Positions 3,955 through 53,931 of a DNA stretch of 64,000 bases are shown here, piece by piece. Below the pieces are notes generated by a model, which was given only the letters and a program-made list of their open reading frames with translations, was not told the origin of the DNA and made no database searches. The translations under genes and the position numbers were made by a program. Location: NCBI GenBank assembly GCA_030427885.1, contig JAUICM010000007.1:62001-126000 (forward strand). Reading direction: 5' to 3'. Numbering within the stretch: position 1 is the first letter of the stretch; each line of letters begins with the position of its first letter. This stretch comes from Rhodothermia bacterium (lineage in GTDB: Bacteria > Bacteroidota > Rhodothermia > Balneolales > Balneolaceae).

Positions 3955-6279
3955 TTAAAGAGCAGAAACCTCCATCTCTGATCCATTCATGCAATCATAA
4001 ATAGTCTTGATTAGCACAGCTTGTTTATAAGGTTTGGGAATGTAACCATTCATGCCGGCATCAAAGCATTTATTGATTTCAGACTTAAAGAGACTGGCAG
4101 TCATAGCAATAATTGGGGTGGGTAGTTTACCGGTTTGGTTTTCGAGTTCTCGGATCTTTTTGGTGGTGGAATAGCCATCCATTTCAGACATCTGGATATC
4201 CATAAGTATCAGGTCAAAATTATTATATTCATAATGTTTAATGGCACTTTCTCCATTTGGGGCAATAGTGATCTGTACTTTAGGGATGTACCATTCCAGG
4301 TCATCTTTGGCAACCATTACATTGAATTCATTGTCTTCCACAAGAAGTACATGTAATCCGGATAGCTGATCTCCAATTCTTTTAAGTTCATCATCACCAA
4401 CAGAAGGGATATTAATTTCCACGGATTCAGGGATGAGAACAGGGATGGTGAAGCAGAATATGCTTCCTTGTTCAGGCTTTCTCTCCAGCCAGATCCTGCC
4501 ACCAAGCAGTTCGGTGATTTGTTTCGAAATACTTAATCCAAGTCCGGTTCCTTTGATACTTGAATTTCCGGATGATTTACCCTGTTCAAAAGTAGAGAAA
4601 ATGGTGTCAATATCACTTTCGTTAATACCACTTCCTGTGTCCTCAACTTTAAACTGTAAAATTTGCTCTTCTTCCTTGTATGAGATACCAATGGTTATTA
4701 CCCCGGTTTCAGTGAATTTTATGGCATTTCCAACCAGATTCAAAAGAACCTGGGTAAGTCTTGCTGGGTCAGTAAGAATATGAGATGGGATGTTTTCAGG
4801 AAGGTCAGTTTCCATGGAAAGTCCTTTATCTTCAGCTTTAAATTTCAGGATCTTGGTAACTCCTTCGATCAATTCAACAGGATCAGTGATGCTTTGCAGT
4901 ATCTCCAGCTTTCCGGATTCCATTTTTGCCAGGTCGAGAATATCATTTATCAGGACAAGAAGGTTATCAGAACTTTGCTTCATGGCATCAAGGAAGGGTT
5001 CCTGTTCCTTTGAATATTCCTTTCTCTGCAGTGAATTTAACATCCCTGAAATGGCGTGCATTGGGGTTCTTATCTCGTGACTCATATTTGCCAGAAACTG
5101 CTCCTTATATTTCTCAGAGCGTTCGGCACGTTCTTTCTGTCTTTGTATCTCCTGATTTTGCTCACGAATCAACTTTAATCTGCTTAGAATAAATGTAATT
5201 ACAATGATCAACCCAAGTAATCCAATTACTGATACCACGATCACCAGGCGCTGGGAAGCAAGCTTTTGTTCTGCAAGTTGTTCCTGAAGAGCCATTTTTT
5301 CTTCTGCCATTCTTGAATTAGCCTCCCCGAAGGCCAGAACATTTTTAATTGAACTTTCAGAGGGGCTTTCATCAATAAAAAGTCGATAAAAATGCAGAGC
5401 ATCCTCAAAATTGTTATTTGCTGCACTAGCCAGATACAGGCTGTAATTCACAGCAGTTTTTTCATTGACCAGATTATGGGTCTCCAACAACTCTTTTGCT
5501 ATAGTGGCATATTTAAGAGCTGAATCTGGTTCGTTCATATCGATAAATACCTCTGAGATCTTAGCATATATAAATGTGATACCTTCTACACTTGATTCTG
5601 GTGTGATACTTAAAAATCCATGTTCCAGTGCTTTTCTATATTCCCCTGTTTCTTTATAAAAAGTGAAATAAAATTGATGGACACGCCATTTGTAATAGTT
5701 ACTTCCGAGCAACGCAGTTTCAGTCTCGTACTGTTTAATGAGATCCAAGGACTTATTATAGTTTCCAATGGGATCAGCTTTGATAAGACCATCGGCTAGA
5801 AAAAGTGTAAAATCTCTTTCTGGGAGGTCAGGTGGGGGTTGTATTGAAATTATCGCTTTCCTGTAATATTCAGCACCTCGCACATAATCACCAAGATTTA
5901 AATGATGGTAACCCAATGATCCATATACACGAGAACTAATATCCATTGCTGTTTTACTTTCAGGAAATTTCTCAATCAAATATTCAAGTTCAAGCAGCCG
6001 TTCATACCTGCGTGGAAGATCAACTCTTTGGTTATGTATTTCCATTAGTTGATAGGTCAACCGTATTTGTGTATCACTTTTGTTTTGGGCAGCGAAATAT
6101 TGAATACTATCCTGGTATGTATCAATGAATCGCTCATAAATCTCATTATCCAGGTTAACCCAATATTCAGTATCTCTCCAATTAGAGATTATCGGCTCAA
6201 TATTCTGACTTGATCCCCGGTCAGGAAACAGAACAATAATAAAGAGCAGGAAACAGATATATTTAGATCTAGCCGGCAT
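3955..6279 (-). CDS. TPR-containing hybrid sensor histidine kinase/response regulator
   Basis: The protein is predicted to sense through a periplasmic helical-repeat domain and start a phosphorelay. From the ATG at 6279 it has 774 residues: a signal peptide (CFLLFIIVLFP), TPR-like helical repeats to about residue 320, a coiled stretch, a membrane segment near 345-365 (VIGLLGLIIVITFIL), HisKA with H401 in SHEIRTPMH, HATPase_c with NAIKFTETG, DTGSGI and GTGLGLS, and a C-terminal receiver with D694 in LMDIQM and the KP motif. A longer frame opens at 6342, but the 6279 start places the signal peptide at the N-terminus and overlaps the upstream regulator gene by 11 bp, suggesting translational coupling. 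It is the last gene of an Hpt-LytTR-kinase operon. Confidence 0.88.
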   Translation of the reverse strand: MPARSKYICFLLFIIVLFPDRGSSQNIEPIISNWRDTEYWVNLDNEIYERFIDTYQDSIQYFAAQNKSDTQIRLTYQLMEIHNQRVDLPRRYERLLELEYLIEKFPESKTAMDISSRVYGSLGYHHLNLGDYVRGAEYYRKAIISIQPPPDLPERDFTLFLADGLIKADPIGNYNKSLDLIKQYETETALLGSNYYKWRVHQFYFTFYKETGEYRKALEHGFLSITPESSVEGITFIYAKISEVFIDMNEPDSALKYATIAKELLETHNLVNEKTAVNYSLYLASAANNNFEDALHFYRLFIDESPSESSIKNVLAFGEANSRMAEEKMALQEQLAEQKLASQRLVIVVSVIGLLGLIIVITFILSRLKLIREQNQEIQRQKERAERSEKYKEQFLANMSHEIRTPMHAISGMLNSLQRKEYSKEQEPFLDAMKQSSDNLLVLINDILDLAKMESGKLEILQSITDPVELIEGVTKILKFKAEDKGLSMETDLPENIPSHILTDPARLTQVLLNLVGNAIKFTETGVITIGISYKEEEQILQFKVEDTGSGINESDIDTIFSTFEQGKSSGNSSIKGTGLGLSISKQITELLGGRIWLERKPEQGSIFCFTIPVLIPESVEINIPSVGDDELKRIGDQLSGLHVLLVEDNEFNVMVAKDDLEWYIPKVQITIAPNGESAIKHYEYNNFDLILMDIQMSEMDGYSTTKKIRELENQTGKLPTPIIAMTASLFKSEINKCFDAGMNGYIPKPYKQAVLIKTIYDCMNGSEMEVSAL

Positions 6280-7042
6280 TGAGATCAAACCATTCTTTGA
6301 ATTCTGTTTTTCTTCGTCTGGAGATAGGAAGTTGAGTACCACTTACTAATTCAATATGGTCATTGTTAGTGGTACGCCGGATATATAATTTATTTATCAG
6401 GTGTGATTTATGGATCCTGAAAAAACCTTTTCCATCCAACATCATTTCGATATCACTCAGAGTTTTAGAAACAAGTTCTTTTTTACCAGAGCTGAGGTGG
6501 ATAATACTGTAATTTCGGTCTCCTTCAATACGTGAGATCAGACCCACTTTCATGATCAACTCTCCGTTCTGGGTTTGAAGAATTAATTCATGATCTGCAA
6601 TATTGGGTTCATGATAATTTTTAACGGCTAACGGAACTGGGTTTGTTGAGTTTGATATCTGTTGTTGCTTAAATCGTTGAATAGCAATTTTCAATTCTTC
6701 CAGATCAAAAGGCTTAAGAAGATAGTCGAGTGCATTAAAGCGTATTGCTTTGATAGCATAATGGCTGTAAGAAGTAATGAAGATCGTTCTGAAATCAATT
6801 TTGGGTATTTGGGAAAGCATTTCAAAACCTGTCATGTCCGACATTTCTACATCTAAAAAAATAAGCTCTGGCTTGAACTCTTGAACTTTTTTTATGCCCT
6901 CTGATCCTGAATTAGCGATACTTAGAATTTTGACTTCTGGAAAGTGCTGCGAAAGTTTATCCTTTAGCAGGTCATGAATAAATGGATCATCATCGATGAT
7001 CAGGCAGTGTATTGAACCTCTTATGTCCCCATTATTTTTCAA
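6269..7042 (-). CDS. LytTR-family response regulator
   Basis: This DNA-binding response regulator has 257 residues. The receiver domain has the acidic pocket IIDDDP (residues 15-20), phospho-acceptor D64 in LIFLDVEM, and the conserved LKPFD lysine near residue 114. The C-terminal LytTR domain is recognisable from ISRIEGDRNYS, FFRIHKSHLIN and LPISRRRK. Its start overlaps the Hpt gene by 11 bp and its end overlaps the hybrid kinase by 11 bp, so the three are almost certainly co-translated. It is the natural output of the relay. A tandem repeat resembling LytTR sites lies about 90 bp upstream of the operon. Confidence 0.92.
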   Translation of the reverse strand: MKNNGDIRGSIHCLIIDDDPFIHDLLKDKLSQHFPEVKILSIANSGSEGIKKVQEFKPELIFLDVEMSDMTGFEMLSQIPKIDFRTIFITSYSHYAIKAIRFNALDYLLKPFDLEELKIAIQRFKQQQISNSTNPVPLAVKNYHEPNIADHELILQTQNGELIMKVGLISRIEGDRNYSIIHLSSGKKELVSKTLSDIEMMLDGKGFFRIHKSHLINKLYIRRTTNNDHIELVSGTQLPISRRRKTEFKEWFDLNAG

Positions 7043-7400
7043 AGTGATCCCGAATGATCCTGTTTATTTCTTCTGTAGCCCCTTCTAGCTTAATTAAAAT
7101 ATTTTTTACGATTGATTCCAGTTCATTCAAAGAAATGACTTGGTATTCTAACTCCAGTCTTTGTATGGGGATAAGCACATCGGGGATTCCAAAAAACTGG
7201 AGCTGGGGACTCATATTGTGGAGTATCTGCCTTACCTGGACCCGGTCACCATCAGCGAGTTTGTGCTTGAGGTTTTCAATTCTTTGAGGGATCAATTCCT
7301 GAAACTGTACGAGATACCGGTACATTTTCTTCTCATCACCTCTTGAGATGTCTATCAGGTTGATGGGATTAATAAATTTTGTATTCCAGTTTACTTCCAT
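7032..7400 (-). CDS. Histidine phosphotransfer (Hpt) domain protein
   Basis: This 122-residue all-helical protein carries the Hpt signature around H61 in RQILHNMSPQLQFFG, equivalent to the usual AHTLKG helix. It probably passes phosphate between the receiver of the hybrid kinase encoded two genes downstream and the LytTR regulator encoded between them. It is the first gene of the operon and overlaps the regulator by 11 bp. The assignment rests on the single motif, the size, the helical content and the neighbours. The second conserved Hpt position, usually Lys three residues after His, is here Ser or Pro, so phosphotransfer needs testing. Confidence 0.72.
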   Translation of the reverse strand: MEVNWNTKFINPINLIDISRGDEKKMYRYLVQFQELIPQRIENLKHKLADGDRVQVRQILHNMSPQLQFFGIPDVLIPIQRLELEYQVISLNELESIVKNILIKLEGATEEINRIIRDHFEK

Positions 7401-7486
7401 TCAAAGTGCTTTTTTGACTCAACTAAAGTATAGAATCCTGAAAGAGTATCCTCATAAACTGATCCTGCGGTAAGAATATCCTTGGT

Positions 7487-7510
7487 AACCGTTCGATCAA
7501 CCGTTTGATT
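7487..7510. promoter_or_regulatory. Tandem direct repeat resembling LytTR/AlgR sites
   Basis: Two 12 bp units lie head to tail: AACCGTTCGATC and AACCGTTTGATT. The core ACCGTTCG closely matches the published LytTR/AlgR-type site (ACCGTTCGTC; general form WMMGTTNRK). The repeat is in the divergent spacer between the Hpt-LytTR-kinase operon (start 7400) and the T9SS cargo gene (start 7600), so it could serve either or both. The 12 bp period is shorter than the 21-22 bp usual for LytTR dimers. Function is inferred. Confidence 0.5.
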
Positions 7511-7599
7511 AATGATAACTCCGAAAGATAAGACACGATTGGGCTTTTATGATTCGTGTGATACAATCAATGGTATAAAAAAACCATAATGCAAAATAA

Positions 7600-8919
7600 A
7601 TGGGTATGAATATGAATAAAATCGCTACAAGAATACGGTTAATATTGGTTCTGGCTTTCGCTGTAACGATAGTGAGTAATGCATTTGCTCAAAGCCATAC
7701 AAAGTTAAAAAAAGAACTGGATTACACTTCTAAAGGTACACTGAGCTGGTATTTAAAAAATATGAAAGATGTCTCAAGTGGAGTACCGGGAATGTTCAAA
7801 TCTGTTTCGGACAATAACCTTAACGAGGTTTCAACCGAGTTTCTGGATGTGGGATCGTGGATAGATGAAAGTGTTGCTGAATATAGCTACAGTAACGACC
7901 GGAAAACTATAACGATTACTATGCAGGTTTTGAACTGGGATACATTTGTAATGGAACCCGGAGGCACTATCGTTCTGGTTTTGAATGATGAAGGTTATCC
8001 TGTTTCATACACTCAAACCTATGAAACCGGTTCAAGTACTACTACTTTTAGTTTTGATGAAAATGAAAGGGTATCCAAGATCGAAATGGTGGATGATTTT
8101 GAATATGATGACGGGTATACCGTCGATTTTACAAGTACAACAAATCATAACTATATAACAGAAGATTCTGTCGAGTGGACCTCAGTGGATAATTTTAATG
8201 GGGATATATCCAATTACTCCGGTTATTACTTAAACAAGGATGGAAACTATATAGAGGTAAATAAATTTGTTCAGGAGAGTGAGTTGATCGTAAATACTGC
8301 TACCTATTACAATACAAGCATGAATGATATGCTGAAGCATTATTTTGATGATCTGTATATAATAGGTAGCTATACTACTCTCAAAGTTGGCAGTGAAGCT
8401 ACGAGACCATATATAAGAAATATTCTGGTTGAAGAAGATGGCAAGCCAAAAACAAGGACATTCGAATATTATCATGTTGAGGACGGTATTGAACCACACT
8501 GGGATTCCTGGTGGAGAACAACAGTAATGTATGATGGAGATACAGTAACCGGATTGTTTGATGCTTCATACGAAGAGGAAGGATGGGGCCCAACAGATTA
8601 CAGGAAGCATTTTACCTACAATGCTGCTTTATCTACAGAAGAAAGCGAAGAAATACAAGGATTTGAACTTCAGCAAAACTTTCCAAACCCATTCAATCCG
8701 GCTACAACCATTAATTATTCTCTCAGCTCAGCAGGGATGGTTAACCTCAAGGTATATAATGTGCTGGGCATGGAAGTGGCTGACCTGGTAAATGAGTTCA
8801 GATCACAAGGCAGTCATCAGGTGAAATTTAATGCATCAGATCTGCCAACAGGGTTGTACTACTATACATTAACCACAAATGGTAAAACTCAATCAAAAAC
8901 GATGATTTTGATGAAGTAA
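7600..8919 (+). CDS. Secreted protein with T9SS C-terminal sorting domain
   Basis: This 439-residue protein is likely exported through the Sec system and then the type IX system. It begins with a signal peptide ending near NAFAQ (ATGs at 7600, 7606 and 7612 are all possible; the context does not decide). The central 330 residues are beta-rich and acidic with no recognised catalytic motif. The last 85 residues form a typical type A sorting domain: FELQQNFPNPFNPATTI, VYNVLGMEV, LPTGLYYY and a final MILMK. The matching translocon subunit SprA is encoded at 46636-53931. A strong terminator follows. A LytTR-like tandem repeat lies 90 bp upstream, so the adjacent relay may control it. Confidence 0.85.
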   Translation: MGMNMNKIATRIRLILVLAFAVTIVSNAFAQSHTKLKKELDYTSKGTLSWYLKNMKDVSSGVPGMFKSVSDNNLNEVSTEFLDVGSWIDESVAEYSYSNDRKTITITMQVLNWDTFVMEPGGTIVLVLNDEGYPVSYTQTYETGSSTTTFSFDENERVSKIEMVDDFEYDDGYTVDFTSTTNHNYITEDSVEWTSVDNFNGDISNYSGYYLNKDGNYIEVNKFVQESELIVNTATYYNTSMNDMLKHYFDDLYIIGSYTTLKVGSEATRPYIRNILVEEDGKPKTRTFEYYHVEDGIEPHWDSWWRTTVMYDGDTVTGLFDASYEEEGWGPTDYRKHFTYNAALSTEESEEIQGFELQQNFPNPFNPATTINYSLSSAGMVNLKVYNVLGMEVADLVNEFRSQGSHQVKFNASDLPTGLYYYTLTTNGKTQSKTMILMK

Positions 8920-46635: not shown

Positions 46636-49600
46636 GTGCGTCAGATTTATAGGCTACTTTATTTAATACCATTCGCATTGTTGTTCAATGGGGCGATGGT
46701 TATGCAGGGACTTCATGCTCAGGAAGTAACGGACTCGTTGCGCACAGAAGTTGGGGAAGATTCTCTTGAAGGAATCAAGTTTTATCGTTCCAATCCGGTT
46801 AACCGTGTTAGTGGTTTAACAGGGGTTAGAAAAAGCAGATTGTATCAGGTTTCTAACGGACAAGATAAGACTACTGTTACCTGGGATTCACTGGGAACCT
46901 ACAAGATCAGCCGGACCCTGTATGGAAAACAGATATTTATACCGCAGGTTGTCTCATTCGAGAATTACATTGAATTAAAGAAAAAGCAGCAACAGAATAA
47001 TATCAGATTCAATCTTATTGCTGAAGGGAAAAGTCAGCAGGAAGAGAAAAAAGGTCTTTTAGATCTTAAAATTAGTGTACCGGGCGGCGAGAACTCTGCC
47101 TTTTCAACCATCTTCGGGAGCAACGAGGTGAACCTCAGGGTTAATGGCTCTGCAAATATGAATGTGGGTGCTACCGTTCAGAAACTGGATGACGGGACCT
47201 TGCCTGAAGACCTGAGAACCAGGATCGATCCTACTTTCAATCAAAACCTGCAGCTTAATATTCAGGGAACTATTGGTAGTAAATTAACTATAGCCACCGA
47301 CTGGGATACCGAACGACAATTTGATTTTGAAAACCGCCTCAGCATTGTATACAAAGGCTTTGAAGATGAGATCATCAAGAGTATTGAAATGGGTAACGTT
47401 GCGATGGAAACGGGGAACTCGCTGGTTACCGGTGGTAGTGCTCTTTTCGGGATAAAGGCCATTACGGAACTTGGCCCTTTAAAGGTTACCACGGTTGTAT
47501 CTCAACAAAAAGGGGAGAGCAATACCCAAACCATATCGGGTGGTTCTCAGGAACAGTCTATCAATATCACACCGGCTGATTATGAAGATGGAAAACATTT
47601 TTTCATTGACTATTACAACCGACAGGAATTTGAGAATGCACTTGCAGACCCGCAGAATATATTGCAGCCTTATCAGGTTTCCGAGCTATATGTATATGTA
47701 AGACGGGCAGAACAGATCCCTGGTGAGAACTCTATTCAGGCAATCGCTTTACTTGACCTGGGGGTGAATGACCTGGGTAATGGTGAGTTTGGGCTTCCCG
47801 GTAATAACCGTGACCGTTTCACAGACCAACAATTAGACAGCCTCAGAGCATCAAACAGTAATGCCACGAATGATGATTTTAATGCAGGGGCACAAGAGTA
47901 TGTAGACGCTCCATTCGAACTTTTGGAAGAAGGTATCGATTACACCTTCAACAGAGCTCTGGGCTTCATAAGCCTGAAGAGTTATATCAATTCCGGGGAT
48001 GCGATCGCTATCGCCTATGTATATACAGATCGTTCACAGGGCGGCACTCCCGTTGCAGTGGGTGAATTGAATGCTTCAGGAAATGACAGGAGATATTTGA
48101 AACTTATCCGGCCGGGTGGAATGACCACAGAAGACAAAGCGTGGCCTTTGACTATGAGAAATATCTATTCACTGGGTGTTTCAAGTGTTAGTCCGGATGC
48201 TTTTGAACTGGATATAGCAGATACCCGGGGTAATGTTGATGTAGTGAATCTACCAGGTCGGCCAAATTCAACCTTACTTCAGGATCTTGGGCTTGACCGG
48301 CTTAATTCTGAAGGGGCAAAACAACCGGATAACCAGATCGATTTTACAGGAATAACCCTGGATGCAGGATCAGGAAGGATCATGTTCCCATATCTGGAAC
48401 CCTTCGGCGATCGGATCTATCAACTGCTTGATGGAATGGTAGCTGACTCGATCAGGGATAACATGGCATTTACTGATCTATATGATATAAAGGCGGTTGA
48501 TGCCAGCAGGAGGTCAAAGAACAGTAGTTATACCATAACAGGGAAATCAAGTGGTGGTGTTAGTGGAACCTACAATCTTGGATTCGGACTTGTTGAAGGT
48601 TCGGTAAAAGTATTTGCCAATAATGTAGAGCTCTCCGAAGGAACTGATTATGAGGTTGACTATTCCTTTGGTTTGTTGACCATTCTGAATGAACGCTATC
48701 TGGCCTCAGGGCAGGAGATCAATGTTGAGTATGAAAGTAACCAGCTCACGATAATCGGGCAGAAGAACTTCACAGGAATTCGAGCTGAATACACCGTTAA
48801 TGATGATATAAAGCTGGGAAGTACCTTCTTCAAGTTGAAAGAACAGCCACTGTCCGACAAGATCCGGATAGGTAATGAGTCTATCAATAACACGGTTATA
48901 GGGCTTGACGCAAATGCTTCTTTTGATACCCCATGGATGACCCGGTTTATTGATAAGGTGCCGCTTTTGCAAACCAAGGCTCCTTCGAGCATCAGCTTTA
49001 GTGGTGAATTTGCTCAATTGCGACCCGGTATCGCTCAAACGAATGCGGTTCAGGAAGCTATAGATAAAAATGAGCTTTATAGCGATGAAGAGAACGGACT
49101 TGCATTCATTGATGATTTCGAGGGAGCGGAATACAATATCAGTTTTGTGAACCCATTGAGATGGAACCTTGCCGCTGCTCCTGCAGCAGTTCCAGGTTAT
49201 GCCCCTGACGAAACGTATTTTAGTGATCCGGACTTTTTGAGTCCCCAAACTTCAGCCGATCGTAAAGCCAGAGCTGACCTGAGATCTCAGTTTTCTTTTT
49301 ACTCAATACCAAGGAACCTGGAATCAATACAATCGGCCACCAGTACTGCTGAAACACAAACAGTTTTCATACAAGATGTATTCAAGGGAAGAGAGATTGA
49401 TCAACGTCAACCCGACGAACTTACTACTTTCGATGTGTATTACAATCCCGGTAACAGGGGCCCCTATAATTATAATATGGACCTTAAAAACCTGCTGGAA
49501 AATGAACCCCAGAGAACATGGGGTGGGGTAACAGCAGTAATTCCTCCGGGACAGGAGGATCTGGTTCAGAACAATATCGAGTTTCTGGAATTCTGGGTTC

Positions 49601-52600
49601 AGGCAATTCTTCCGAACGGTGAAGATCCTGCAGGACTGGAACAAGACTATGATGGTAAGATCTATATTGATCTTGGAGTGATCTCGGAAGATATCATACC
49701 GAATGTGCGGTTGAATACAGAAGATGGCCTTGCTTCCACATTGAATAATCTAGCTGAGGATGATCCATTCGGAACACCAAGGTCATATATACCACCGTCT
49801 CCACCGGTACCATTAGGACAATTCTCGAATTCGAACAGAGAGCTGGAAGATGTTGGACTGGATGGAGCACCAGACCCCGGAACAGCGGGAGCTAATGGAA
49901 AAGATGAGGGGGCCCTGTTTGCAGACTTTATCGAAACGATAAGGGTAAATTACGGGGAGTCCAGCGAAATGTATCAGTCGGTAGCAGAAGACCCCTCAAA
50001 CGATAATTACGTGTATTACAATGAAAACAAAGCACGTAATATGCCTCTGCTGAAAGACCGTTTTTATCGTATGCTGGGGTATCATGACGGAAACACCCCT
50101 GAAAGTGGTGGCAGCGATAACAAAACGGCAGTGACCCTGAAACCAGATACAGAAGGCTTAGTGAGTTCTTCTTCTATTCAGCAAACGAACTCCTACTACC
50201 AGTATGAACTTGATTTCAACCCGGCTGATGTCAGTAATCTTCAGATCGATGCCCCGGGAACTTATATTGTAGACAAGATCTCAAATAGCCCGTATTACCG
50301 TACCTGGTATCTGGTCAGGATCCCATTGAGTGAGTACACGCGTAAATTCGGAGATATCGATAACTTCCAGAATATTTCCTATATGAGAATGTGGATGTCC
50401 GGGTACAAAAAACCATTTACCCTGAGATTTGCAACTTATGAGTTTGTTGGAAGTCAATGGAAGAAGATCACTGATGAAATATCTGGTGTTCCTGCTTCTC
50501 AGGAGCAATTCCGGGTTTCCACGATCAATATTGAGGAAAACGCAAACAGAACACCGTTTCCATACCGTCAGCCATATGGTTCGATCAGAGCCCTGAACAG
50601 GTCGGCACAGGTTCAATCCCTCGAAAATGAACAGTCGCTGGTTTTGAGCGTGGAAGACTTGAATGGACAGGAATTACAAATGGTGAAACGGGTTTATCCG
50701 GGTAAACTAAACCTTCTCAATTATTCCAATATGAGGATGTTTGTGCATGGTGAGGGTTTCGATGCCCGTGGAGAGGCTGAGCTTGTTGTACGAATCGGTA
50801 GTGATCTGGAGAACAATTATTATGAATACCGGCAACCGGTTACACCCTCTCCAAATCATACATTTAATAAATATCCGGGTGATCAGGGAGATCTGGAATC
50901 GGATGCAGAAGTCATCTGGTTGTACGATGAAAACAGTATGAATATCGTGATCTCAGCTTTTAATGTACTTAAGCAGCTAAGAGATGACAACCAGATCGAG
51001 AATACTGAATACTTTGATTGTACAGAATTACCAGGAGGCTGCAAGGATATTATTGGGGATGATACCGTTGATGGAGCTGTAATTGGTATAAAGGGGGTTC
51101 CGTCACTTGAGAGTGTTTCCGAGATCGCACTGGGTATTCGTAATCCGTATAATGTTTTAGATCCAAACACAGTTGGTATCCCAAGTCTGGACGCAGAATT
51201 CTGGTTAAACGAGCTAAGGGTTTCCGGTTTTGATAATGAAAATGGATGGGCAGCCAATGCAAAATCTTCTGTTAAGCTGGCTGACTTTGCTACGGTTAAT
51301 GCAAACGTGACCCGTAAAACGAATGGCTTCGGTGGACTAAACTCAAGATTAGGTGACAGAGAAGTATCAGATCAGCTGGGATATTCACTAAGTTCTACAG
51401 TGAATCTCCATAAATTAGTGCCAGACAGGTTTGGCTGGAGTTTTCCGGTTACAATCTCTACCAGGCGAAATACACGGACTCCTAAATACCTGCCAAATCA
51501 GGGGGATATAAGGCTTACTGATTTTGTAGATAAGGTAAATTCAGATCCAAATTTGACCTCAGATGAGAAAAGTGCCATTATAAACGACCGTATCTCCAAT
51601 ATTGAGACAGTAAATGAGGATTTTTCGATCAATGTCTCCAGTATTTCCAAACAGAATTCCAGGAGTAAACTTGCCCAGTACACTCTTGATAATCTGAAGT
51701 TCAGCTATAACTATGCTGAAGGATATTCAAAGAATCCTCAACTACAGTTTCAAAATCAATGGAATTACAAAGCATCGGTTTCGTACAACCTTACTCTTCG
51801 GAGGGTACAACTTATCAGGCCATTTAAGTTCACGGAGAATATTCCAGTGCTTAAAGCTCTGTCAAATCTGAGATTTGGTTACCTACCTACTTCTATAAGT
51901 GCATCTTCAACACTCACAAGAAAATATGATGAGTCGAGGAGGAAGAATCTATCGGATCCGACTCTTCCTCAGTCGCTGAACCAAACACATGCGTTCACTG
52001 AGCAAAATAACTTCGGACTCAATTATAGTTTCACCAGAAGTATTCCTATCTCTTTTAATACAAGTACAAGTTTTGATCTTTCCAGCGCTGGTATAAGACC
52101 AAAGAATAATACCGGTGTGGATAGTCTGGCGTACGACCTTCGCCCTACATTCGATGTAATAAAAGGAGTGATCGGGGATACTCTGAGTGCCAGAAGGTCA
52201 ACCTATCAGGAGAATTATTCTGCTTCATGGAAGCCAACATTAACCCAGATCAAAGCACTGAGTTGGTTGAGTCTGTCAACTCAGTATAGTGGCGGGTTTC
52301 AGTGGACCAACAGTCCAAGTGGTTCTAATCTTGGATCAACGGTGGGGAACAGATTGCAGCTCGATAATACCGTTAGAATGAATACTGAAAAGTTATTGAA
52401 TGGTCTCGGATTCATAAAAAAGATCAAGGATCAGAATAAAAAAGAAACGAATGAAAGAGCTGACATAAAAAAGAAAAGGGCAAATGAAAAAGAAAAGGGA
52501 GTAGCCGATAGTTTGCGCACACCGCCGTTGCAACCAAATCTGTTCAGAGATGCAAAGTATCTTGGAAGAAAAGTGTTTCTGGGTTTGATCAGCCTTAAGG

Positions 52601-53931
52601 ATATTAGTGCCAATTATAAACATCAGAAGAATGGTACTCAGGTCGGATATGATGGAGATTCTCAGATCTGGTATGCGTTTAATAGTCCCGGAGCTAATAA
52701 TTTTAGTCCTGCATTCGGATATCGGTTTGGTATAAATGACAGGATCCCAGAATCAGAGTTGATCGATAATATAAACGGGAATAATAATATCCAGCTTCCT
52801 GCCAATAACAGTTATTCTGATAAATACTCATTCACCACAAGATTAACGCCATTTGAGAATATCAGTATTGACCTGGACTGGTCTGCAGATATTGGAACCA
52901 GAGTAACGGAATCGATTACATTGGGAACCAATAATGAATTTACATCTGTGACTACGGAATCCGGAACCTATACAAGTTCGGTCTGGTCTTTTAGCAGTGG
53001 CTATGATAATTTCTTTAGAACACAGCTTCAGACCGCATTAGATGACATCGATGATGGAAGTAACGTGATATCTGATGCTAATGGAAATGGGGATGGCAGG
53101 TCAGTTCTGAACAGAACCACTGTTCAGGAAGACTTCAGAAGATCATATTTGGGAGAGGGTGCTGAAGGTCATGGAGAAAAAGGATTTCTGGCATTTCCAA
53201 AACCAGCCTGGAAAGTAAACTGGACCCGATTTGAACGATTTCTCCCTTTCATTGGCAAATTCATGAGCAGCGCAACTTTATCTCACGGTTACAGAGGAAA
53301 TTATGTAGTGGATTGGAGCCTGAACGCTTTAACCGGGGTACAGCCAGCACAATCACTGGGCTCATTCAGTTTTATTGATGACAGGGGTAAGTATGAACCA
53401 ACAAGCATCAAGGTAGAACAAAGATTCCAACCACTACTGAAGCTGACCATGAGCTGGAAATCAGGATTAAGAACTGACATTGGTTACAACCGGAATAATA
53501 TATCCAGCTTTGCGATCTCCAGTAAACGTGTAACAGAGGTTCTTGATCATGGCTTTGATGGTAACATTAGTTATACCTTCAGAAATGTTACACTGCCGTT
53601 CCTGCCTAAAATTAAAAACAACATTGAGATGGGGATACGGGGAAGCCTGAAGAATAATACTGAGACCACGTACAAGCTCGATAGTGATCTTTCGGAAGCA
53701 CTGGTCTCAGGTATTAATTCTGAATCAGATGTTAACCAGGCGGTGGTTACAAAAAGAGGAGAAACCGGAGGGCGTAATATTAATGCCACCTTTACTTTGG
53801 GATATCAGATATCGAGTACGATAACCTCGAACTTCGAGTACACATTTTCAAAAAGAGAATCGAATAAATATCCAACCAATACCACTCACGATATCAGGTT
53901 CAATATCAAGATCGCTATTCGGTCCCGCTAG
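46636..53931 (+). CDS. sprA: T9SS outer membrane translocon SprA/Sov
   Basis: This is the giant 36-strand barrel through which type IX substrates cross the outer membrane. The protein has 2431 residues, within the family range. It begins with GTG; a signal peptide (ending GLHAQ) follows. Recognisable family segments include FNLIAEGKSQQEEKKGLLDLKI in the N-terminal region (shown here only in part), NVGATVQKL, TNYGESS-like loops and a C-terminal strand ending FNIKIAIRSR. The cargo protein at 7600-8919 is a likely client. Its end overlaps the convergent lnt gene by 17 bp. Confidence 0.95.
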   Translation: MRQIYRLLYLIPFALLFNGAMVMQGLHAQEVTDSLRTEVGEDSLEGIKFYRSNPVNRVSGLTGVRKSRLYQVSNGQDKTTVTWDSLGTYKISRTLYGKQIFIPQVVSFENYIELKKKQQQNNIRFNLIAEGKSQQEEKKGLLDLKISVPGGENSAFSTIFGSNEVNLRVNGSANMNVGATVQKLDDGTLPEDLRTRIDPTFNQNLQLNIQGTIGSKLTIATDWDTERQFDFENRLSIVYKGFEDEIIKSIEMGNVAMETGNSLVTGGSALFGIKAITELGPLKVTTVVSQQKGESNTQTISGGSQEQSINITPADYEDGKHFFIDYYNRQEFENALADPQNILQPYQVSELYVYVRRAEQIPGENSIQAIALLDLGVNDLGNGEFGLPGNNRDRFTDQQLDSLRASNSNATNDDFNAGAQEYVDAPFELLEEGIDYTFNRALGFISLKSYINSGDAIAIAYVYTDRSQGGTPVAVGELNASGNDRRYLKLIRPGGMTTEDKAWPLTMRNIYSLGVSSVSPDAFELDIADTRGNVDVVNLPGRPNSTLLQDLGLDRLNSEGAKQPDNQIDFTGITLDAGSGRIMFPYLEPFGDRIYQLLDGMVADSIRDNMAFTDLYDIKAVDASRRSKNSSYTITGKSSGGVSGTYNLGFGLVEGSVKVFANNVELSEGTDYEVDYSFGLLTILNERYLASGQEINVEYESNQLTIIGQKNFTGIRAEYTVNDDIKLGSTFFKLKEQPLSDKIRIGNESINNTVIGLDANASFDTPWMTRFIDKVPLLQTKAPSSISFSGEFAQLRPGIAQTNAVQEAIDKNELYSDEENGLAFIDDFEGAEYNISFVNPLRWNLAAAPAAVPGYAPDETYFSDPDFLSPQTSADRKARADLRSQFSFYSIPRNLESIQSATSTAETQTVFIQDVFKGREIDQRQPDELTTFDVYYNPGNRGPYNYNMDLKNLLENEPQRTWGGVTAVIPPGQEDLVQNNIEFLEFWVQAILPNGEDPAGLEQDYDGKIYIDLGVISEDIIPNVRLNTEDGLASTLNNLAEDDPFGTPRSYIPPSPPVPLGQFSNSNRELEDVGLDGAPDPGTAGANGKDEGALFADFIETIRVNYGESSEMYQSVAEDPSNDNYVYYNENKARNMPLLKDRFYRMLGYHDGNTPESGGSDNKTAVTLKPDTEGLVSSSSIQQTNSYYQYELDFNPADVSNLQIDAPGTYIVDKISNSPYYRTWYLVRIPLSEYTRKFGDIDNFQNISYMRMWMSGYKKPFTLRFATYEFVGSQWKKITDEISGVPASQEQFRVSTINIEENANRTPFPYRQPYGSIRALNRSAQVQSLENEQSLVLSVEDLNGQELQMVKRVYPGKLNLLNYSNMRMFVHGEGFDARGEAELVVRIGSDLENNYYEYRQPVTPSPNHTFNKYPGDQGDLESDAEVIWLYDENSMNIVISAFNVLKQLRDDNQIENTEYFDCTELPGGCKDIIGDDTVDGAVIGIKGVPSLESVSEIALGIRNPYNVLDPNTVGIPSLDAEFWLNELRVSGFDNENGWAANAKSSVKLADFATVNANVTRKTNGFGGLNSRLGDREVSDQLGYSLSSTVNLHKLVPDRFGWSFPVTISTRRNTRTPKYLPNQGDIRLTDFVDKVNSDPNLTSDEKSAIINDRISNIETVNEDFSINVSSISKQNSRSKLAQYTLDNLKFSYNYAEGYSKNPQLQFQNQWNYKASVSYNLTLRRVQLIRPFKFTENIPVLKALSNLRFGYLPTSISASSTLTRKYDESRRKNLSDPTLPQSLNQTHAFTEQNNFGLNYSFTRSIPISFNTSTSFDLSSAGIRPKNNTGVDSLAYDLRPTFDVIKGVIGDTLSARRSTYQENYSASWKPTLTQIKALSWLSLSTQYSGGFQWTNSPSGSNLGSTVGNRLQLDNTVRMNTEKLLNGLGFIKKIKDQNKKETNERADIKKKRANEKEKGVADSLRTPPLQPNLFRDAKYLGRKVFLGLISLKDISANYKHQKNGTQVGYDGDSQIWYAFNSPGANNFSPAFGYRFGINDRIPESELIDNINGNNNIQLPANNSYSDKYSFTTRLTPFENISIDLDWSADIGTRVTESITLGTNNEFTSVTTESGTYTSSVWSFSSGYDNFFRTQLQTALDDIDDGSNVISDANGNGDGRSVLNRTTVQEDFRRSYLGEGAEGHGEKGFLAFPKPAWKVNWTRFERFLPFIGKFMSSATLSHGYRGNYVVDWSLNALTGVQPAQSLGSFSFIDDRGKYEPTSIKVEQRFQPLLKLTMSWKSGLRTDIGYNRNNISSFAISSKRVTEVLDHGFDGNISYTFRNVTLPFLPKIKNNIEMGIRGSLKNNTETTYKLDSDLSEALVSGINSESDVNQAVVTKRGETGGRNINATFTLGYQISSTITSNFEYTFSKRESNKYPTNTTHDIRFNIKIAIRSR

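Follow-up and report, generated by a model that had tools for sequence, protein, structure and literature searches.

Does the short tandem repeat between a signalling operon and the gene of a secreted protein connect the two as an operator? The question was raised by an initial annotation of the window, the whole stretch of 64,000 nucleotides analysed here. In the window, AACCGTTCGATC at 7487-7498 and AACCGTTTGATT at 7499-7510 abut directly and are identical at 10 of 12 positions, in the place and back-to-back layout that had been described. The tandem is located in a 199-bp spacer (7401-7599) between a minus-strand operon encoding an Hpt protein, a LytTR response regulator (RR) and a hybrid kinase, and a plus-strand gene whose product has a type IX secretion system (T9SS) C-terminal domain. 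We consider it likely that the site is a putative operator of the adjacent LytTR phospho-RR, controlling the exported-protein gene and probably also the relay operon.

The genes on both sides were analysed for their domains. The first operon gene (7032..7400, minus strand) encodes a protein of 122 aa. Pfam Hpt matched all nine orthologous members with a best value of 4e-7, the window member reaching 0.022, which is below the curated cutoff. His61 is invariant among the members, and an AlphaFold2 model with a mean pLDDT of 92 had solved Hpt domains as its top structural matches (best E 1.4e-3, TM 0.76-0.79). Judged by its profile matches and predicted fold, the protein is an Hpt phosphotransfer protein. 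The RR of 257 aa (6269..7042, minus strand), our proposed operator binder, matched Pfam Response_reg and LytTR, the latter with 57.3 bits against a cutoff of 22.6, so the neighbouring operon does encode a LytTR regulator as had been stated. The hybrid histidine kinase (3955..6342, minus strand; 795 aa as called from a GTG) has a TPR-like sensor region followed by HisKA, HATPase_c and receiver domains in Pfam. With an Hpt carrying a conserved histidine, a kinase with a receiver and an RR with a receiver, the cluster has the composition of a phosphorelay operon. At a related locus (L177, 471-4427) a Reg_prop/Y_Y_Y sensor region replaces the TPR-type one in the hybrid kinase, showing that the input domain was exchanged while relay and operator were kept.

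The proposed target (7600..8919, plus strand) starts at 7600 or 7612 and encodes an exported protein of 439 aa. Its C-terminal sorting domain was recognised as Por_Secre_tail (PF18962, 42.2 bits against a cutoff of 27) and follows a signal peptide, called by eye, as expected for a type IX cargo. The window also encodes an SprA homologue of 2431 aa (46636-53931; SprA_N, 332 bits), a protein of the T9SS translocon.

Tandems of 12 bp with at least 10/12 identity occur six times in the 64-kb window, and therefore the repeat by itself proves nothing. On this count it could be a chance or low-complexity repeat, and since similar tandems arise by chance its significance as a repeat alone was rejected. 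When the window's genome was searched with the tandem pattern, one perfect match, the 7487-7510 tandem, and one weaker match were found, and the reversed control pattern gave seven matches. It is the conservation that raises the tandem above chance. A pattern search in 394 genomes of the phylum yielded 54 matches, most of them within reading frames and discarded. Three of the few intergenic matches (G127, G156, G162) adjoin an operon of the same Hpt-RR-HK type, and their RRs share 55-58% identity with that of the window. An independent RR profile search of the same 394 genomes gave the window's RR and these three at 469-487 bits, the next best match being at 214, and all four loci carry the site. 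Five further operons (G502, G587, G607, G541 and G876) were found via the RR protein alone, and each has the tandem. Among 84,980 species genomes scanned, the sole close RR, 63% identical over a partial length, was on a Flavobacteriales MAG contig (L031), where the spacer from the RR gene to a T9SS-tailed cargo contains CCGTTTGATCAACCGTTTGATCA.

The repeat was thus present at ten of ten loci encoding a regulator of this family. Nine of them have the divergent operon of Hpt, LytTR RR and hybrid kinase, and one is a partial contig. This comparison of orthologous spacers had been proposed as a check by the annotation, and the lack of conservation that would have spoken against its reading was not seen. 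Taxonomically the ten loci extend over several families in at least two classes, and their regulators are about 55-63% identical. In dinucleotide shuffles, the best spacer match to the 23-bp consensus was reached in none of 1000 at nine loci and in one of 1000 at the tenth (L174). When nine whole genomes were searched, every match with up to two mismatches was at the module locus. Two such sites were found in G502, together with a third that has three mismatches, and two in G127, ahead of exported-protein genes; a relaxed composite search added one weak match in G502. A genome-wide regulon is unsupported, as the nine genomes have no site with up to two mismatches beyond the module. With the conservation at ten loci, the shuffle tests and a sole strong copy in the genome, a chance repeat has next to no probability, and for practical purposes conservation refutes it. 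Since the repeat is conserved beside the same signalling genes in distant bacteria, it is very probably a DNA switch of that signalling system.

The relation of the site to the regulator was analysed with a tree of 72 RRs. The ten site-bearing RRs form one clade (92/87). Seven RRs from the family to which G162 belongs, encoded divergently from an HK-RR-Hpt cluster, form its sister group (100/100). In all seven sister spacers, two direct copies of the same half-site are exactly 20 bp apart, with at most one mismatch in six spacers and two in the seventh. No 12- or 20-bp half-site pair was found at any of 55 control loci with other LytTR RRs. The contrast of 10/10 with 0/55 loci supports the main interpretation of the annotation, a candidate operator linking a phosphorelay to a secreted protein. 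The two clades share the half-site and a near-canonical pair, and specific to the window's clade are the 12-bp unit and an inverted arm. Because the sister clade has the 20-bp direct pair only, the 12-bp repeat and the inverted arm appear to have been added, in the window's clade alone, to a classical LytTR pair; which arrangement is ancestral is our inference.

An alignment of 13 sites resolved the anatomy of the operator. The half-site consensus CCRYTNGATMA contains the AlgR core CCGTTYG, and the unit CCRYTNGATCAA is present twice. The first tandem copy, H1 (CCGTTCGATCA, 7489..7499, plus strand), has no mismatch to the consensus and is kept in all 13 sites. H2 (CCGTTTGATTA, 7501..7511, plus strand) follows 12 bp after H1 with one mismatch, and its position is kept in 13/13 sites with at most three mismatches. 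Exactly 20 bp after H2 is a degenerate third direct copy, H3 (CCGAAAGATAA, 7521..7531, plus strand; two mismatches in 11). With up to three mismatches in 11 allowed, H3 was found 19 or 20 bp after H2 in 12 of the 13 sites, and its GATAA has a constant offset in 11; at 11-18 or 21-34 bp no third direct copy was found in the same sites. An inverted half-site, H0, is 18 bp upstream of H1 at 7462..7470 (ATCCTGCGG on the plus and CCGCAGGAT on the minus strand) and faces the relay operon. Its core ATCNNNYGG occurs at a gap of 18 or 19 bp in 11 of 13 sites, compared to a background frequency of 0.0004; the window's H0 has one mismatch. H0 and H3 were first spotted by inspection, post hoc, and given their constant spacing a chance origin of both is very unlikely.

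This anatomy modifies the earlier description. The tandem stands, but it is part of four half-sites rather than two, and the bounds 7487-7510 were too narrow since the half-sites at 7462-7470 and 7521-7531 also belong to the element. The unusual 12-bp period is real; the near-canonical 19-20-bp pair beside it had been overlooked. No sigma-70-like promoter was found in the window's spacer.

Two loci show variants of the arrangement. L031 is reversed, with the tandem oriented toward the RR and the 20-bp pair, whose second copy is CCACTGGATAA, oriented toward the cargo; only there does H0 have a canonical minus-strand partner. L178 has two tandem pairs in head-to-head orientation, separated by about 6 bp (4708-4759 when the locus is reverse-complemented; about 600968-601019 in G876:C7). 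Its operator therefore reads nearly alike on both strands and is possibly a fully symmetrical version.

We then compared the site to known LytTR systems. LytTR operators are described as direct repeats of 9 bp that are 10-13 bp apart, and triple forms are known for RcoM1 and CoxC (PMC11347149). The H2-H3 pair at 19-20 bp and the sister pair at 20 bp match the spacing of canonical operators such as that of AgrA (PMC11347149), to which the present clade adds two conserved half-sites, one at a 12-bp period and one inverted at a distance of 18-19 bp. The operators of RcoM1 and CoxC also have more than two half-sites, near or over the -35 region, but their three repeats are all direct and about two helical turns apart, whereas here the arrangement is mixed (inverted, 12 bp, 19-20 bp). 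CoxC is a membrane one-component regulator, unlike the present phosphorelay RR (PMC11347149). The likeness to AlgR that had been noted was confirmed for the core: CCGTTCG/CCGTTTG is shared with the AlgR sites of Pseudomonas aeruginosa algD and algC and is identical to the published AlgR core CCGTTCGTC/CCGTTTGTC over its first seven bases (PMC4064291). The full 9-bp core CCGTTCGTC is not matched, as CCRYTNGATMA has one base inserted before TC; AlgR sites end directly in TC (CCGTTCGTC), whereas the present half-site ends in ATCA or ATAA. AlgR is a LytTR response regulator, as is the putative binder here, and its sites likewise can face toward or away from the promoter (PMC4064291). AlgR sites are single and far apart, whereas here four half-sites are held in a fixed register over about 70 bp beside the regulator's own operon. 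With an adjacent LytTR regulator, a direct pair in the 19-22-bp period, a half-site of known type and conservation restricted to orthologues, the site is by every testable feature a LytTR-type operator. No description of a mixed-spacing LytTR architecture was found in the literature searched, and a limited search on the control of T9SS by LytTR regulators, or on their operators in Bacteroidota, gave nothing directly relevant by title or abstract.

Conservation indicates constraint and says nothing of the identity of the binder, and a DNA-binding protein other than the RR could recognise the element. The core part TTGATCAA is palindromic in some members, which would fit such a protein; the palindrome is not kept, however, and because position 6 of the unit varies the palindromic reading was ruled out. 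Moreover, no gene of the module other than that of the RR encodes a DNA-binding protein, the element follows the RR clade, its half-site recurs in a different arrangement in the sister RR clade, and the core of the half-site equals the AlgR site. We therefore regard another binder as improbable.

Which gene is controlled was approached through the partners of the sites. The sites adjoin a gene for an exported protein at nearly every locus, but these partner genes are not one family: a T9SS cargo in the window and L031, related small lipoproteins (L131, L178, L186), another lipoprotein family (L176, L177), signal-peptide proteins of 148 aa (twice in L174, and L175) and a subtilase (L174), the lipoprotein and signal-peptide calls being made by eye or by a simple lipobox pattern and not by a trained predictor. 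The annotated T9SS cargo is correct for the window gene, but since the sorting domain occurs only in the partners of the window and L031, a T9SS cargo is ruled out as the general partner. The tandem is 105-157 bp from the start codon in seven cases; a further four measure 307-331 bp, counting an approximate start for the L174 subtilase gene. The three sites of L174 (8156, 9023 and 9983) each precede a different exported-protein gene, namely two 148-aa paralogues and the subtilase, apparently by local duplication of site plus target.

The operator might chiefly autoregulate the relay operon, the adjacent exported-protein gene not being its true target. In the sister clade the 20-bp pair separates the RR gene from what is at most loci a divergent kinase-cluster gene, in the window's clade H0 is oriented toward the Hpt gene, and the site of L187 adjoins no divergent exported-protein gene. 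Yet H1, H2 and H3 point toward the exported-protein gene in nearly all sites, two of the three L174 sites do not adjoin the relay operon, and a second site of L186 is ahead of a metallophosphatase lipoprotein gene. An operator that serves mainly the relay operon is therefore unlikely, and we favour control of the exported-protein gene by the RR.

For this preferred reading the following mechanism is proposed. The hybrid kinase would pass phosphate to the Hpt and from there to the RR, whose LytTR domain would bind the CCRYTNGATMA half-sites. The direct pair of H2 and H3, 20 bp apart and directed toward the secreted-protein gene, would position the RR over the promoter of that gene or immediately upstream of it. 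H1, 12 bp upstream, and the inverted H0, 18 bp farther, may recruit more RR for cooperative binding, for control of the divergent relay operon, or for both. Activation would be favoured over repression, and the relay operon may be autoregulated; a LytTR operator that overlaps the -35 region can repress, as known for CoxC (PMC11347149).

The distribution of the regulator is patchy in the window's class, since this RR was found in one of 195 genomes, namely the window's own. The relatives of the window RR (operon 6269-7400) near 55-63% identity sit in other lineages, and none is close in the 195 genomes of the same class. Either horizontal transfer or wide loss may have led to this distribution. 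Homologues of the cargo at L062, L063, L064 and L067 have no half-site pairs. The interrupted RR locus L214 (G994:C1:7586867-7587568) also has no half-site pair; its RR is a more distant one of the family, broken by a TAG stop and without an Hpt neighbour, and is possibly a decaying copy.

Tentatively, at a little under even confidence, we propose a new LytTR architecture. One clade would read its half-site as a direct pair at 19-20 bp, a direct pair at 12 bp and an inverted arm at 18-19 bp, derived from the sister-type 20-bp pair, and a single higher-order RR assembly of about 70 bp would control the relay operon together with an interchangeable exported-protein gene. Such a module of regulator, operator and target would travel among Bacteroidota lineages, retaining the site while exchanging the exported protein.

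These genomes are rich in LytTR-type regulators, reaching 30 or more RR matches in a single genome (E<=0.001). Sequence comparison here established the anatomy and conservation of the site and showed that within a genome it is confined to the module locus and that it follows the regulator clade. From this comparison the regulator clade, the half-site, two operator architectures and the likely targets could be read, with the sister clade as an internal control. The spacing of LytTR operators and its evolution thereby become directly testable, and a phosphorelay would be tied to specific surface or exported proteins.
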